A stretch of DNA of 64,000 bases from Caulobacteraceae bacterium (GTDB lineage Bacteria > Pseudomonadota > Alphaproteobacteria > Caulobacterales > Caulobacteraceae): positions 1 through 64,000 of the forward strand of contig CANESI010000001.1 of the NCBI GenBank assembly GCA_947441065.1. Direction: 5' to 3'. Under the pieces are notes generated by a model. The model was given only the letters and a program-made list of their open reading frames with translations, had not been told where the DNA came from and ran no database searches. Positions 47,721 through 54,705 of the stretch are shown piece by piece; the stretch's first letter is position 1, and each line of letters begins with the position of its first letter. The position numbers were made by a program, and so were the translations under genes.

Positions 47721-48383
47721 CTAATAATAGTGGGTGCTTCCCGCAGCCCACAGATCATATTCGTATGTGATCCGGTCCTCTATCAAGCTGTATGAGCGAA
47801 GGTCATGGCCTCCGCTTTCCCACTTTCTCTGAATTGCCCATGCACAGTAGTCAGCAACCTGTAGGCATGGGTCTGATCCGCAAGGCAAAAAATCAGTTTT
47901 CCATTCTTTGGCACGCATGGTTTGCCGCATGACGTCATCAACAGCCTCTTTGAAGGCGGCGCGCTCTTTCCTGACCCCCAATGAGGCCGCTGTGACGAGA
48001 GCCTTATGATCCGTGGTGAACTGGTCCTTGGTGCCGTGCTTAAAGTGGTAGTACCAGCCGAATTTGTAGAAGGTTGGTTTACTTGTTTTGACATGGGCTT
48101 GGGCCTTGGACTTTTCCATGATCGTGGCCTGTATTTGGAAGGGGTGCCCCAAGATGGTTTCATAAACCGCATCGCGGACGACCTGTTTGTCTGTTGTCGC
48201 GTGGAAATGCTCACCCAAGTCAGCGCCTTGCCAAACCAATTTTCTTCTAAGGTCGAGAAGTGACGTAGCGACCGAACACTCCTCCATGGTCACGGAACAG
48301 AGTATAAAACATCGGCTTACGTTCTGTCCCTTCGTGAAGGTGAAGCAACCCGCTTCGTCAGCGAACAGGAATCGATTGAGCAT
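47721..48383 (-). CDS. DUF3800 domain protein (predicted nuclease-like), probably acquired
   Basis: 220 aa from ATG 48383 (MLNRFLFADEAGCFTF), chosen because DUF3800 proteins begin with a hydrophobic strand ending in D-E/S-x-G; a longer frame to 48488 is possible. Acidic residues near the start and near the C-terminus (CLQVADYCAWAIQRKWE) match an RNase-H-like fold proposed for the family. Function unknown; relatives occur in mobile and defence-rich regions. It is the only minus-strand gene between metK and pnp, and its G+C is low (25/60 at 48061-48120). Confidence 0.8.
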   Translation of the reverse strand: MLNRFLFADEAGCFTFTKGQNVSRCFILCSVTMEECSVATSLLDLRRKLVWQGADLGEHFHATTDKQVVRDAVYETILGHPFQIQATIMEKSKAQAHVKTSKPTFYKFGWYYHFKHGTKDQFTTDHKALVTAASLGVRKERAAFKEAVDDVMRQTMRAKEWKTDFLPCGSDPCLQVADYCAWAIQRKWESGGHDLRSYSLIEDRITYEYDLWAAGSTHYY

Positions 48384-48545
48384 ATTTGCATAAATAAACC
48401 AATTCAGGCGTAAACTAAAGAGCCATCCAGGGTCGCGATGACATGCCGCGTCCTTCGCGGGATAGGAGAACGATAAAATCCCTTTCAAAACGGGGAGGTG
48501 ACAAGTCGCTCATCCGGTTCTATAAGACCCCCACATCGATCGATG

Positions 48546-48594
48546 GCGTTGGATGACGCTTTCGAGCGGCGGCCGGAAGGCTCGCCGCTTTTTT
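48546..48594 (+). terminator. Attenuator-like intrinsic terminator in the rimP leader
   Basis: AGCGGCG (48565-48571) pairs perfectly with CGCCGCT (48583-48589), with a further GCC/GGC pairing around a GGAA loop, followed by six Ts (48589-48594). It stands 20 nt before the rimP start. The 5' arm can instead pair with CGCT (48557-48560) around a TTCG loop, and that CGCT overlaps an ACGC able to pair with GCGT (48546-48549). Three mutually exclusive hairpins in order are the layout of an attenuator. Confidence 0.65.
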
Positions 48595-48614
48595 GTTGCT
48601 TTGAGAGGCTAAGC

Positions 48615-49178
48615 TTGCGCGGCAAGACCAGTGAAGACCGGGACCTGATCTCCCTCCTCGACCCCGTGGTTGAGGCGGCGGGCTTTGAGCTTGTGCGTCT
48701 GCGTCTGATGAGCGGCACCCAGACCCGGCGCCTTCAACTGATGGCCGAACGTCCCGATGGCAGCATGAATGTCGAAGGCTGTGCGATGTTGTCGCGCGCC
48801 GTGGCCGAGGTGCTGGACGCCGCCGATCCGATCACGGGCGAATATCTCCTAGAGGTTTCAAGCCCCGGCATTGATCGCCCCCTGACCCGCCTCAAGGATT
48901 TCGAGACCTATGAAGGGCTAGAGGCGCGCATCGAACTGGACCGCCTGTGCGAAGGGCGCAAACGTTTCAAAGGCCAGTTGGCTGGCCTTGAAGACGGCGC
49001 TGTCGCGATCAATCTAGAGGGTGAGCCTGACCATACCACCTTGATCCCCTTTGATTGGGTGATCGAGGCCAAGCTCGTCCTGACCGACGAGTTGATGAAA
49101 CGTGGCGCAGACGAACGCGCTTCCCGAATGACCCCGCAAGATTCGCTAGATGGCGAAGACGAAGAGGACCTGGCCTAA
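48615..49178 (+). CDS. rimP: Ribosome maturation factor RimP
   Basis: 187 aa from TTG 48615 ([23 protein letters not shown]), with GAGAGG upstream. In-frame ATGs further upstream (e.g. 48543) would place a strong terminator inside the coding sequence and add a tail without homology. Motifs: [11 protein letters not shown] and [18 protein letters not shown]. Helps assemble the 30S subunit. Its stop overlaps the nusA start by 1 nt (TAATG). First gene of the nusA-infB operon. Confidence 0.93.
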
Positions 49179-50806
49179 TGAGCGTCACCGGCATTTCCGC
49201 AAACCGGCTTGAACTCCTACAGATCGCTGACGCCGTTGCGCGTGAGAAATCGATCGAAAAGGAAATTGTGATCGAAGCCATCGAGGAGGCGATCCAGAAG
49301 GCGGCGCGCTCGCGTTATGGCGCTGAGCACGATATCCGCGTCCATATCGACACCCGCACCGGCGAGATGACCATCACCCGCGTGGTGACGGTGGTTGCCG
49401 ACGGCACGGTTGAGAATGAATATGCCGAACAGAGCCTGACCGACGCCTTGAAGGGCGATAAGGAAGCGGCCATCGGCAAGACCTATACCGAAATCCTGCC
49501 GCCCTTCGAATTTGGCCGAGTCCAGACCCAGATGGCCCGTCAGGTTGTGACCCACAAGGTCCGCGAAGCCGAACGTGAGCGCCAGTACGAAGAGTTCAAG
49601 GACCGCATCTCCGAAGTGGTCAATGGCACGGTCAAGCGCGTCGAATATGGCAATGTCATTGTCGATCTCGGCCGTGGTGAAGGCATTATGCGCCGCGACC
49701 AAGCCATCCCGCGCGAGAACTTCCAGATCGGCGACCGCGTCCGGGCCTATATCTATGATGTGCGCCGCGAGACCAAGGGTCCGCAGATCATGCTCAGCCG
49801 CGCCCATGGTGGCTTCATGGCCAAGCTGTTCGCGCAAGAAGTGCCGGAAGTCTACGACGCCGTCATCGAGATCCGTGCCGTTGCCCGCGATCCAGGCAGC
49901 CGCGCCAAGATGGCTGTGGTCTCCAATGATAGCTCCATCGATCCCGTCGGCGCTTGCGTGGGTATGCGCGGTAGCCGGGTTCAGGCCGTTGTGGCTGAGC
50001 TTCAGGGCGAAAAGATCGACATCATCCAATGGTCGCCTGATGAAGCCACCTTCATCGTTAACGCCTTGGCCCCTGCCGAAGTCACCAAGGTCGTGCTCGA
50101 TGAAGAGGACGAGCGCGTTGAAGTGGTGGTGCCGGACGAGCAACTGTCCTTGGCCATTGGTCGCCGCGGCCAGAATGTGCGTCTGGCCAGTCAGCTGACC
50201 GGATGGCAGATCGATATCATGACCGAAAGCCAAGAGAGCGAGCGTCGTCAGCGCGAATTTGCCGAGCGCACGACCCTGTTCCAAGAGGCCTTGGACGTCG
50301 ACGAAGTGATCGCCCAACTGCTGGTCACCGAAGGCTTCGCCGCTGTGGAAGACGTGGCCTATGTCGAGGCCGAAGAGATTGCCAGCATCGAAGGCTTTGA
50401 TGATGACACGGCCGAAGAGCTTCAGGCCCGCGCCCGCGACTTCCTTGAGCGTGAGGCGGCGGAGCTGGATTCCAAGCGTCGCGCCCTCGGCGTCGAAGAT
50501 GGTCTCCTGCAGATTGAAGGCCTGACCATTGCGATGGCCATTGCCCTCGGTACCGGCGAGGTCAAGACGGTTGAAGATCTGGCCGATCTGGTGCCGGACG
50601 ATCTGCGCGGCTGGTTCGAAGCCAAGGACGGTGCCCGCGTGCGTCAGCCCGGCCTGCTGGAAAGCTTCAATCTGTCACCGGAAGATGCCGAGGCCCTTAT
50701 CATGGGCGCTCGCGTCGTGATGGGCTGGGTCGAGGCTCCGGAAGTGGTTGAAGACGAGCCTGAGCTTGAGGCCGACCTTGAGCCTGAGGCCGATGCCGAG
50801 GCTTGA
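49178..50806 (+). CDS. nusA: Transcription termination/antitermination factor NusA
   Basis: 542 aa from ATG 49178 ([24 protein letters not shown]). The N-terminal RNAP-binding domain is followed by S1 ([17 protein letters not shown]), two KH domains ([18 protein letters not shown] and [16 protein letters not shown]), and C-terminal acidic helix-hairpin-helix repeats ([26 protein letters not shown]). Modulates pausing and termination; it could itself act on the leader upstream of rimP. Confidence 0.97.
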
Positions 50807-51732: not shown

Positions 51733-54705
51733 ATGAACGACGCGAACGACAATGAAAACGACCGTCCCGACGGTTCGGCCGGCCAATCTAACGGCCAACC
51801 CGGCGGCAGGGCTCCCCTGACGCTGAAGCCCCGTGCAGGTGCGGTCAGTGCCGGTACGGTGAAGCAAAGCTTCAGCCACGGCCGGTCCAAGACGGTGGTC
51901 GTAGAGACCAAGCGTCGCCGTGTAGACGGCGCGCCAAGCGGGCCTGCGCCTGCGCCGGTTCAGGCCGAGCGCCGCCCAGCCCCTGAGGCTGCCCGTCCGC
52001 AGGAGCCGCGTCCTCCGCGTCCCCAGCAGCCGCTTCAGACCAATCTGAATCTTTCGGCGGAAGAGATGCGCGCCCGTCAGCGCGTCGTTGAAGCCGCTCG
52101 CGCTGAACAAGAACGCCAAGTGGCCGAACGCAAGGCGCTCGATGATGCGCGCCGCGCCGAGGAAGAGGCAATGCGCCGCGCCGCCGCTGAGGCCCGCGCC
52201 GCTGAGGCTGCCCTTCAGGCCAAGATGGCGCCGCCGCCTGCTGCGGATGCCGTTGCACCAACACCGGTCAAGGCAGAAGCTCCGGCTCCAGCCCCAGCGC
52301 CTGTTGCTGCTCCGGCCCCTGCGCCGGTTGCGGTTCAGCCTCCACCCTATCGGGCTCCTGAGCCGATCCGTGCCGCGCCAACCCGTCCAGTTGAGCCGCG
52401 CCGCGATGATCGTCAGGCCACCACGACCTATCGCAGTGATGCGCCGCGTCCGGCTCCGACCGGTCCGCGTCCGCCGCGTGACGGCCAGCGCCCCAATACA
52501 GATCGTGCTGCCCCGCCTGCTCGCGCCGGTGAGACGGTTCGTTATTCGGCCCTTACGCCGCGTCCCGCTCCGCCGCGCCCCGGTGCTCAGGGGGCTCGCC
52601 CCGGTCCAGGAGGTCGTCAGGCCCCGCCTTCGGCCCCGGTAACGCCCGATGTGCAGCGCGCCGCGCGTACCGCCCCTCCAGGTGCGGGCAAGGACCGTCG
52701 TCCTCAGGATCTGGACGAGGATAGCATCAAGCGCGCCAAGGCCGCAGCGCCGGGCGGCAACGCCAAGGCTGTCAGCCGCGTTAAGGGTGCACCCCAACGC
52801 CGCGAAGGTCGCCTGACCATCCAAGCCGTCGCCGGTGATGGAGAGTCCGCTGACCGCATGCGCTCGCTGGCCTCGGTTCGCCGGGCCCGTGAACGCGAGC
52901 GTGAAAAGCGCAAGGGCGGTGGCGCTCAGGATCAGATCAAGGTCACCCGTGACGTGGTCATTCCTGATGTCATCACCGTGCAGGAACTGTCACAGCGCAT
53001 GGCCACCCGCGCCGTTGACGTGATCAAGTTCATGATGCGCCAAGGCATGATGCTCAAGATCAACGACGTGATCGATTCCGATACGGCTGAACTGATCGCC
53101 ACGGAATTTGGCCACAATGTTACCCGCGTGTCGGAGTCTGACGTTGAAACCGGCTTCCTGTCGGCGGAAGATCACGATCAAGACACCATCTCACGGCCCC
53201 CCGTGGTCGCGGTTATGGGTCACGTTGACCACGGCAAGACCAGTCTGTTGGACGCCTTGCGTTCGGCCGATGTGGCGGGCGGTGAGCATGGCGGCATTAC
53301 CCAGCATATTGGAGCCTATCAGGTCCGTCTGCCTGCGGGCGACCGGGTCACCTTCCTCGACACGCCCGGTCACGCGGCCTTCTCGGCCATGCGAGCGCGC
53401 GGTGCCAATGTCACTGACATCGTGGTTCTGGTCGTGGCCGGTGATGACGGGGTCATGCCTCAGACCATCGAAGCCATTCACCATGCCAAGGCTGCCGGTG
53501 CGCCGATTATCGTGGCCGTCAACAAGATGGATAAGCCCGGTTCCGATGCCACCCGCGTCGTCAACGAGCTTCTGCAGCACGAGATCGTGGTCGAAAGCCT
53601 CGGCGGTGACACCCAGATCATTGAGGTCTCTGCCCTCAAGAAAACCGGTCTGGACAAGCTGATCGAAGCCATTCTGATCCAAGCCGAAATGATGGACCTG
53701 AAGGCCAATCCGGATCGGACGGCTGAAGGTGTGGTCATTGAAGGCAAGCTCGACAAGGGACGCGGCCCCGTGGCCACGGTTCTGGTCAAGCGTGGCTCGC
53801 TCAAGCGCGGCGATATTGTCGTGGCCGGTGCCGCTTGGGGCCGCGTGCGCGCCCTGATCAACGAACGTGACGAGCAGGTCTTGGTGGCTGAACCCTCCGT
53901 GCCTGTCGAAATCCTCGGCCTTGATATGCCTCCGAGCCCCGGCGAAGCCTTCGCTGTGGTGGAAAATGAGGCTCGCGCCCGTGAACTGACCGAATATCGT
54001 GACCGTAAGCGCCGCGATAAGATGCTGACCCCCACTGCTGCCGGTGCGACCTTGGCCGATATGATGGCCAAGCTGCAGGACAAGAAGCTTAAAGAGCTTG
54101 CCCTGATCGTGAAGGCGGACGTGCAAGGTTCGGCCGAAGCCATCATTGGTTCGCTGGAGAAGATCTCCACCGATGAGGTGCGGGCACGGATCATTCACTC
54201 CGGCGTCGGTGCCATCAACGAGAGCGATGTGCTGCTTGCTAAGGGCTCCGGCTCGCCCATCCTCGGCTTCAATGTCCGCGCCTCTAAGCAGGCCCGCGAT
54301 CTGGCTGAGCGCGAAGGCGTCGAGATCCGTTATTACGCGATCATCTATGACCTGCTCGACGACATCAAAAACGTGCTCTCGGGCATGTTGTCGCCGATCC
54401 AACGCGAAACCTTCCTCGGCAATGCCGACGTTCTGCAAGCCTTCGATATCTCCAAGGTCGGCAAGATCGCCGGTTGCCGGGTCACAGAAGGGGTCGTTCG
54501 CAAGGGCGCCAAGGTCCGGATCATTCGCAACGATATTGTGGTGCTGGAACTGGGCACCTTGCAGACGCTCAAGCGCTTCAAGGACGAGGTCAACGAGGTC
54601 AATGCCGGCCAAGAGTGCGGCATGGCCTTTGCGGGCTTCCAAGACATCAAGGCTGGCGACGTCATCGAGTGCTTCACGGTCGAGACCATCAAGCGTTCGC
54701 TCTAA
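51733..54705 (+). CDS. infB: Translation initiation factor IF-2
   Basis: 990 aa. A long Ala/Pro/Arg-rich N-terminal extension (about 1-380) includes a charged coiled coil ([29 protein letters not shown] region). IF2-N (about 415-465) precedes the G domain: G1 GHVDHGKT at 496-503, [12 protein letters not shown]. Then beta-barrel and C-terminal fMet-tRNA-binding domains. GTPase that positions initiator tRNA on the 30S subunit. ATG start. Confidence 0.97.

Follow-up and report, generated by a model that had tools for sequence, protein, structure and literature searches.

What does the short segment in front of rimP do, and does it help to set the expression of the rimP-nusA-infB operon? The question was raised by a preliminary description of a 64,000-nucleotide stretch of a metagenome-assembled Caulobacteraceae genome (assembly GCA_947441065.1, contig CANESI010000001.1, positions 1 to 64,000; hereafter the window), in which an attenuator-like leader, built from a strong terminator and overlapping alternative stems, was placed directly upstream of rimP. 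The hairpins, including the third stem at 48546-48559, the T6 tract and an ATG at 48543 on which that description was based are all present in the window, and the features that bear on the question are the following:

48498..48503, forward strand: -35-like element GTGACA, read from the sequence, 17 nt before the -10 element
48521..48526, forward strand: -10-like element TATAAG, from the sequence and from comparison within the family
48533..48538, forward strand: ACATCG, likely RNA 5' end, with +1 placed at A48533 from the spacing
48541..48564, forward strand: hairpin P1, core stem 48546-48550 / 48555-48559, loop GGAU
48541-48543 / 48562-48564, forward strand: outer pairs of P1, weak and less secure than the core
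48565..48594, forward strand: predicted intrinsic terminator P2, stem 48565-48574 / 48579-48589, bulge U48582
48589-48594, forward strand: T6 tract of P2, ending 20 nt before rimP
48603..48608, forward strand: Shine-Dalgarno-like GAGAGG, read from sequence only
48615..49178, forward strand: rimP (Pfam), start codon TTG 48615, from which homologues align
49178..50806, forward strand: nusA, start codon overlapping the stop of rimP (TAATG), as read in the sequence
51733-54705: open reading frame of infB, recognised by eye in the ORF list

The gene order in the window is metK, trmB, a DUF3800 gene on the opposite strand, rimP and nusA, followed by infB and pnp. The products of four of these genes (trmB, DUF3800, rimP, nusA) were compared with Pfam, and the remaining genes were named by eye from the list of open reading frames. 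RimP was recognised by its RimP_N (5.8e-22) and C-terminal SH3 (3.3e-9) domains and NusA, searched as the longer ORF 49055-50803, by NusA_N (3.6e-32) and KH_5 (1.7e-31). The leader thereby occupies the 5' region of a rimP-nusA-infB operon in which RimP and NusA are assigned by Pfam and infB by eye. The nearest named rimP loci (99% identical) belong to Caulobacteraceae metagenome-assembled genomes, and further matches were found in Caulobacter, Phenylobacterium and Asticcacaulis.

The family comparison points to a likely transcription start for the leader. Among 73 distinct Caulobacteraceae promoter and leader sequences, obtained from 81 loci, 71 have the word TA[TA]A no more than 22 nt ahead of the leader start, as against 10.6% of shuffles, and 65 have it at a distance of 12-14 nt, as against 1.6%; a -35-like word (by a loose pattern) accompanies the -10 word in 54 of the 73, as against 1.0% of shuffles. 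The hexamer ACATCG that follows is nearly fixed in 49 leaders, with A1, A3, T4, C5 and G6 invariant and C2 retained in at least 90%. Judging from the spacing of the promoter words, ACATCG is probably the RNA 5' end and the promoter is probably sigma-70-like, which would put the beginning of the P2 U tract 56 nt downstream of the likely transcription start.

In P2, A48565-C48574 pairs with G48579-U48589 leaving U48582 bulged, and the hairpin alone is predicted to fold with -20.1 kcal/mol. The window leader taken alone is only moderately unusual against shuffled sequences (z -1.86; its folding is equalled or bettered in 10 of 200 shuffles), so that the case for the terminator rests on comparison. 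A consensus scanner called neither P2 nor the promoter at the window leader, because its stem rule has no room for a bulge and its -10 rule demands a final T. Within the order Caulobacterales, 58 of 60 genomes, including the window's own, gave a RimP match, and 57 loci were read, one (G006) being left out since its contig begins inside rimP; by a permissive script, all 57, window included, show a terminator-like hairpin immediately ahead of rimP, with a lowest score of 13.7. A class-wide draw of 192 genomes yielded RimP_N in 171 and no RimP match in 21. Reading down the list of RimP E-values, and thus covering mainly the best-scoring loci in a non-random way that left out the weakest, we examined 130 of the 171 (G000, G007, G036 and G247 were skipped): in the 250 nt upstream of rimP, 98 carry a terminator with a score of 16 or more (4.1% of shuffles), 92 one with 18 or more (1.5% of shuffles), and 32 none that reaches 16. 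By this comparison the strong terminator of the preliminary description is real and sits where it was placed, 20 nt before rimP, and the view of the region as an attenuator-like leader of the nusA operon is borne out to the extent that a conserved terminator adjoins rimP and a promoter word precedes it. We infer that transcription terminates at P2 in vivo.

The second element, P1, was assessed in two alignments: A1, with 28 distinct family leaders (L002, L003, L005 and L016 were excluded as identical to others), and A3, with 49 of 59 distinct leaders, from which ten with another P1 geometry (L020, L024, L031, L032, L226, L230, L231, L232, L234 and L236) were dropped. P1 and P2 together show 21 cells changed on both sides in A1, compared with 5.5 in shuffles; P1 with its outer pairs is 87.8% paired in A1, where L020, L024, L031 and L032 were kept. 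In A3 all 245 cells of the 5-bp core are paired (G-U counted), with 16 double changes compared with 2.9 in shuffles, a value reached by none of 500, and the 12 distinct stem sequences all pair, again counting G-U. These counts come from related sequences, and a quick RimP tree, on which pair 20-27 changed state at least seven times and pair 19-28 at least three times, corrects for kinship only partly. On this covariation, P1 is a real RNA hairpin in Caulobacteraceae. P1-like folding across the class has a mean z of -0.55 over 98 loci, with 32% below -1, and demonstrates no class-wide P1; for 20 leaders of a Rhodobacteraceae set, RNAalifold recovered the terminator but no long 5' hairpin, whereas the single-sequence folds display 5' hairpins. 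A GGA in a hairpin loop is the CsrA-binding consensus, and the P1 loop contains one. We rejected this reading: the CsrA domain PF02599 is found in none of 40 family genomes, while the control search recovered it from E. coli, B. subtilis and T. maritima, and CsrA is an unlikely ligand of the leader.

P2 evolves in a different manner along its length. Four G-C/C-G pairs at its base are identical in 49 of 49 leaders and the fifth is paired in 47, and the upper part covaries (17 double-change cells in the same leaders). The seven 3'-arm bases before the U tract have a mean pairwise identity of 0.83 (n=28), compared with 0.41 for the same positions in the Caulobacteraceae terminator behind pnp (n=24 of 30 loci, six having no terminator); script anchoring was approximate and the genome sets are not identical in this comparison, yet the gap is large. 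Since the invariance of the base exceeds what pairing needs, it is likely to be under sequence recognition.

The unit is also specific to its locus. A model of the leader, R1, scores 86.5 bits at the window leader and 23.2 bits at the next-best place in the window's genome. Of the 36 family genomes, 33 have a complete rimP, and in all of these but G021 R1 finds its best match at the rimP leader, a result that speaks for a lack of rivals and not for independent detection, since those 32 leaders are all in R1 or identical to one in it. Among the matches listed, the best other place elsewhere in the family reaches 32.3 bits (G012), and the weakest rimP leader has 32.9 (G019). Applied to 73 named loci outside the model, some of them from the same genomes, R1 gives leaders of Caulobacter, Phenylobacterium and Asticcacaulis 31 to 87 bits; in other families of the order the scores are marginal and several best matches lie away from the rimP leader. 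A search of viral contigs for the pattern GAGCGGCGGNC..GCCGCTTTTT produced no match. Unrelated sequence has taken over the interval from trmB to the promoter in two species of the genus, the window species and L004, yet promoter and leader are intact in both, which indicates that the unit belongs to rimP and not to the preceding gene. As to the replaced DNA itself, the window has the DUF3800 gene (47721-48488, reverse strand; Pfam 1.4e-5) between trmB and the rimP promoter, and L004 carries other unrelated DNA in the trmB-rimP gap (about 1330-1400), where the end of an open reading frame looks, by eye only, like the C-terminus of a RelE/YoeB-type toxin. In the sister species L002, L003 and L005, trmB directly precedes the promoter, and similarity to the window resumes about 13 nt upstream of the -35 element.

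How does this leader relate to known ones? The rimP-leader, described as the most ubiquitous attenuator, consists of a terminator with a GGGc..gCCC stem motif; in its general form it has no larger conserved elements and no visible antiterminator, and NusA, cited there as a repressor of its operon, was proposed as the sensor (Naville and Gautheret, 2010; PMC2965389). The preliminary description named it as a known element of gammaproteobacteria with a terminator; according to the same source it is not confined to that group (PMC2965389). The window shares with it a highly conserved intrinsic terminator just upstream of rimP-nusA-infB, at a distance of 20 nt for a terminator identified by its sequence alone, compared with 4-130 nt in the published account (PMC2965389). 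Unlike the rimP-leader, the window terminator has no GGGc..gCCC in its stem, the base reading GCGGC..GCCGC in its family, and Caulobacteraceae add the covarying P1 and the conserved 5' end before the terminator. Of the 98 class terminators, 72 contain GGGC together with GCCC, as do all 20 leaders of the Rhodobacteraceae set, so that the class carries the rimP-leader element; GGGC..GCCC is retained in 18 of 59 distinct Caulobacteraceae leaders and is absent from the window. Taken by position and sequence, the window leader seems to be a relative that has diverged while keeping its place, a lineage variant of the rimP-leader. In Rfam, where we take RF01770 to be the rimP-leader family, no family matches the window at gathering; at E<=10 only Xoo2 (14.7 bits, E 1.4) and SNORA21 appear in 48450-48700, and the rimP family has no match at E<=1 in 12 class loci.

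The operon has been studied elsewhere. In E. coli, terminators precede rimP in metY-rimP-nusA-infB, and operon transcripts rise when NusA termination is reduced (PMC6511841). The window thus resembles the t1/t2 leader of E. coli in having its terminator upstream of rimP, where termination involving NusA limits the E. coli operon transcripts; it differs in having one short leader in place of metY, several promoters and RNase III sites. The B. subtilis leader is about 180 nt long (PMC2965389), compared with about 60 nt in the window, for which NusA dependence is a proposal. Among the matches listed in the open literature, judged by titles and the beginnings of abstracts, none concerns a rimP leader in Caulobacter or other alphaproteobacteria; the name rimP-leader turns up in two of the open papers. 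The main text of PMC2965389 contains neither 'Alphaproteobacteri-' nor 'Caulobacter', and 'alpha-proteobacteria' once, in the title of a reference; that of PMC2573895 contains no rimP or nusA, and the available text of PMC8060035 no rimP, ylxS or autoregulation.

Several observations were made on the leaders of the wider class. Those of the Rhodobacteraceae set (L238-L259) have an architecture of their own, with TATA, CAACAGCGG..., a 5' hairpin and a terminator built around CGGGCC..GGCCCG or CGCCCG, after which come a T tract and G. The class rimP terminator (L058-L187) is often GTGGGC..GCCC[AG]C (58 of 98), then a T tract, often GTT, and a short sequence after the T tract seems, by eye, to be conserved. 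One class leader (L112:325-382, reverse strand) matches the Salmonella sRNA family STnc390 with 26.8 bits, below gathering (E 0.033), perhaps as a related leader or simply as a similar terminator. A record titled Enemella evansiae (L252), presumably an actinobacterium, has a rimP locus and a leader of the Rhodobacteraceae type, and is probably a case of contamination or mislabelling.

With modest confidence, we lean towards a premature-termination leader of the rimP-leader kind, for which negative feedback by NusA would be the most likely logic. The segment 48533-48598 would encode the 5' leader of the rimP-nusA-infB transcript. Polymerase would initiate at about A48533, P1 (about +9 to +32) would form as a separate RNA element ahead of P2, and polymerase would then meet P2 and its U6 (about +33 to +62), where some transcripts would end as a leader RNA of about 60 nt and the rest would read into rimP-nusA. 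More NusA would bring more leader termination and less rimP-nusA-infB mRNA. Feedback appears the likeliest logic because NusA, the product of the second gene, stimulates intrinsic termination and reportedly limits its own operon in E. coli. In B. subtilis, NusA is likewise reported to work at intrinsic terminators, among them the one in its own operon, in autoregulation. We infer NusA to be the sensor, and P1 probably serves to position NusA or to keep the 5' region out of P2. The promoter word, P1, P2, the invariance of its base and the locus specificity, on which this proposal draws, come from the comparison of leaders.

Other readings of the same segment differ in what they make of its neighbours and of its alternative structures. 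P2 might merely end the transcripts of trmB, the gene upstream, or serve as an insulator; in the sister species some 70 nt separate the end of trmB from the leader, and P2 would stop trmB transcripts too, but a promoter word lies in between in 71 of 73 sequences, trmB was found in only 23 of 57 order-level stretches and the neighbour in the window is the DUF3800 gene on the other strand. We disfavour this explanation on account of the intervening promoter word and the varying neighbour, and regard it as very improbable. A leader sensed by ribosomes, with an ORF translated through P1 and P2, is harder still to credit. The window has both candidate frames: the one opened by ATG 48543 leads into rimP at TTG 48615, as the preliminary description had it, and the one from ATG 48553 runs to TAA 48610-48612. 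Of the 59 distinct leaders, 17 have some in-frame ATG ahead of rimP, which in L234 lies outside the 66-nt leader, and 31 have no stop codon in the rimP frame along the full length of the leader. The ATG at 48543, however, has a counterpart in 2 of 59, the rimP frame relative to +1 splits 23/18/18, and no conserved short ORF across the hairpins was found over these leaders. The third base of the P1-loop ATG is A in 13 of 49 because it is a stem partner (UG 29, UA 13, CG 7), which points to RNA pairing and not to coding; the frame split and this ATG/ATA variation led us to reject leader ORFs. The classical attenuator, in which stems 1:2, 2:3 and 3:4 exclude one another, or in which UCG of the RNA 5' end (+4 to +6) finds its partner in a CGA/CGG at the P2 5' arm or a little way into it, is improbable. 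All three stems are present in the window, and folds of its growing transcript form P1 first, then extend P1 transiently into the P2 5' arm (ends 48568-48582); by 48586, however, they have settled into P1 plus P2. The comparative alignment that had been suggested as a check upheld the arms of P1 (1:2) and P2 (3:4), which are conserved and covary, and found no compensatory change in the TTCG-loop stem (2:3), CGCU(48557-60)/AGCG(48565-68). This stem, at -4.1 kcal/mol in the window, pairs in 81.1% of cells in A1 and 85.1% in A3, with 0 double changes in 28 or 49 leaders, a result that each of the 500 shuffles equals or exceeds; its apparent conservation comes from P1 and P2, of which its arms are part. 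Where the P1 3' arm changes, the P1 5' arm follows and the basal P2 arm stays fixed. A covarying alternative stem using the terminator 5' arm, the mark of a classical two-state attenuator, was not found in the proposed place, and helices of 4-6 bp, more than 75% paired, that join the 3' side of P1 with the 5' arm of P2 reach 2 double-change cells at most. The 5'-end variant, a closing stem of UCG(N) with (N)CGA ending at the basal A48565 of P2, pairs in 86.5% of cells and has 9 double-change cells, but these are confined to one pair, which is unpaired in 25 of 46, and the stem would cost P2 one A-U pair; with 4 of 500 shuffles reaching its covariation score and 43 of 500 its double-change count, it leaves a small door for a 5'-end switch.

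There is, finally, the reading of a passive leader with no sensor, in which P2 would terminate at a fixed rate, or the two hairpins would mainly protect the mRNA 5' end or release a small RNA of about 60 nt. We hold it to be unlikely, if worth keeping in mind: P2 with its U6 looks strong, no antiterminator is supported, P1 lies close to the 5' end and the leader RNA would be short and structured, but the invariance of the P2 base, beyond the need of pairing and beyond the pnp terminator, suggests recognition. The strength of P2 tells against the feedback leader as well, in that NusA-dependent terminators tend to be weak. The family comparison produced no antiterminator that would explain readthrough, no class-wide P1 was demonstrated, 32 of 130 class loci score below 16 and ten of 59 leaders have another P1 geometry. 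In favour of the premature-termination leader stand the presence of P2 at 57 of 57 order loci and at 98 of 130 class loci, the covariation of P1, the retention of the unit where upstream DNA was replaced, the frozen P2 base, the specificity of R1 and folds that end in P1 plus P2. Fusions carrying the E. coli rimP 5'UTR were lower in a Rho mutant (PMC7815308), and further termination factors may therefore play a part. On the sequence comparison, the interpretation given in the preliminary description is partly supported.

A more specific form of the feedback leader, which we put forward tentatively and as rather doubtful, is that P1 and the invariant P2 base act together as a single protein-binding module, which NusA (or RimP) would recognise on the nascent RNA, making a sensor-type leader in Alphaproteobacteria with family-specific versions, as in Caulobacteraceae and Rhodobacteraceae, that would have co-evolved with NusA. 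If so, the 5' hairpin would evolve by compensatory change and the terminator base would be frozen by recognition. For E. coli there is an outline of how NusA, IF2 and the other products of the operon adjust their own amounts, and the sensor of the rimP-leader is still only proposed. A 66-nt unit with a promoter word, a covarying hairpin and an invariant terminator base would make the question of the sensor directly testable in Caulobacter, and R1 could mark the element across Caulobacteraceae, where Rfam searches gave no match.
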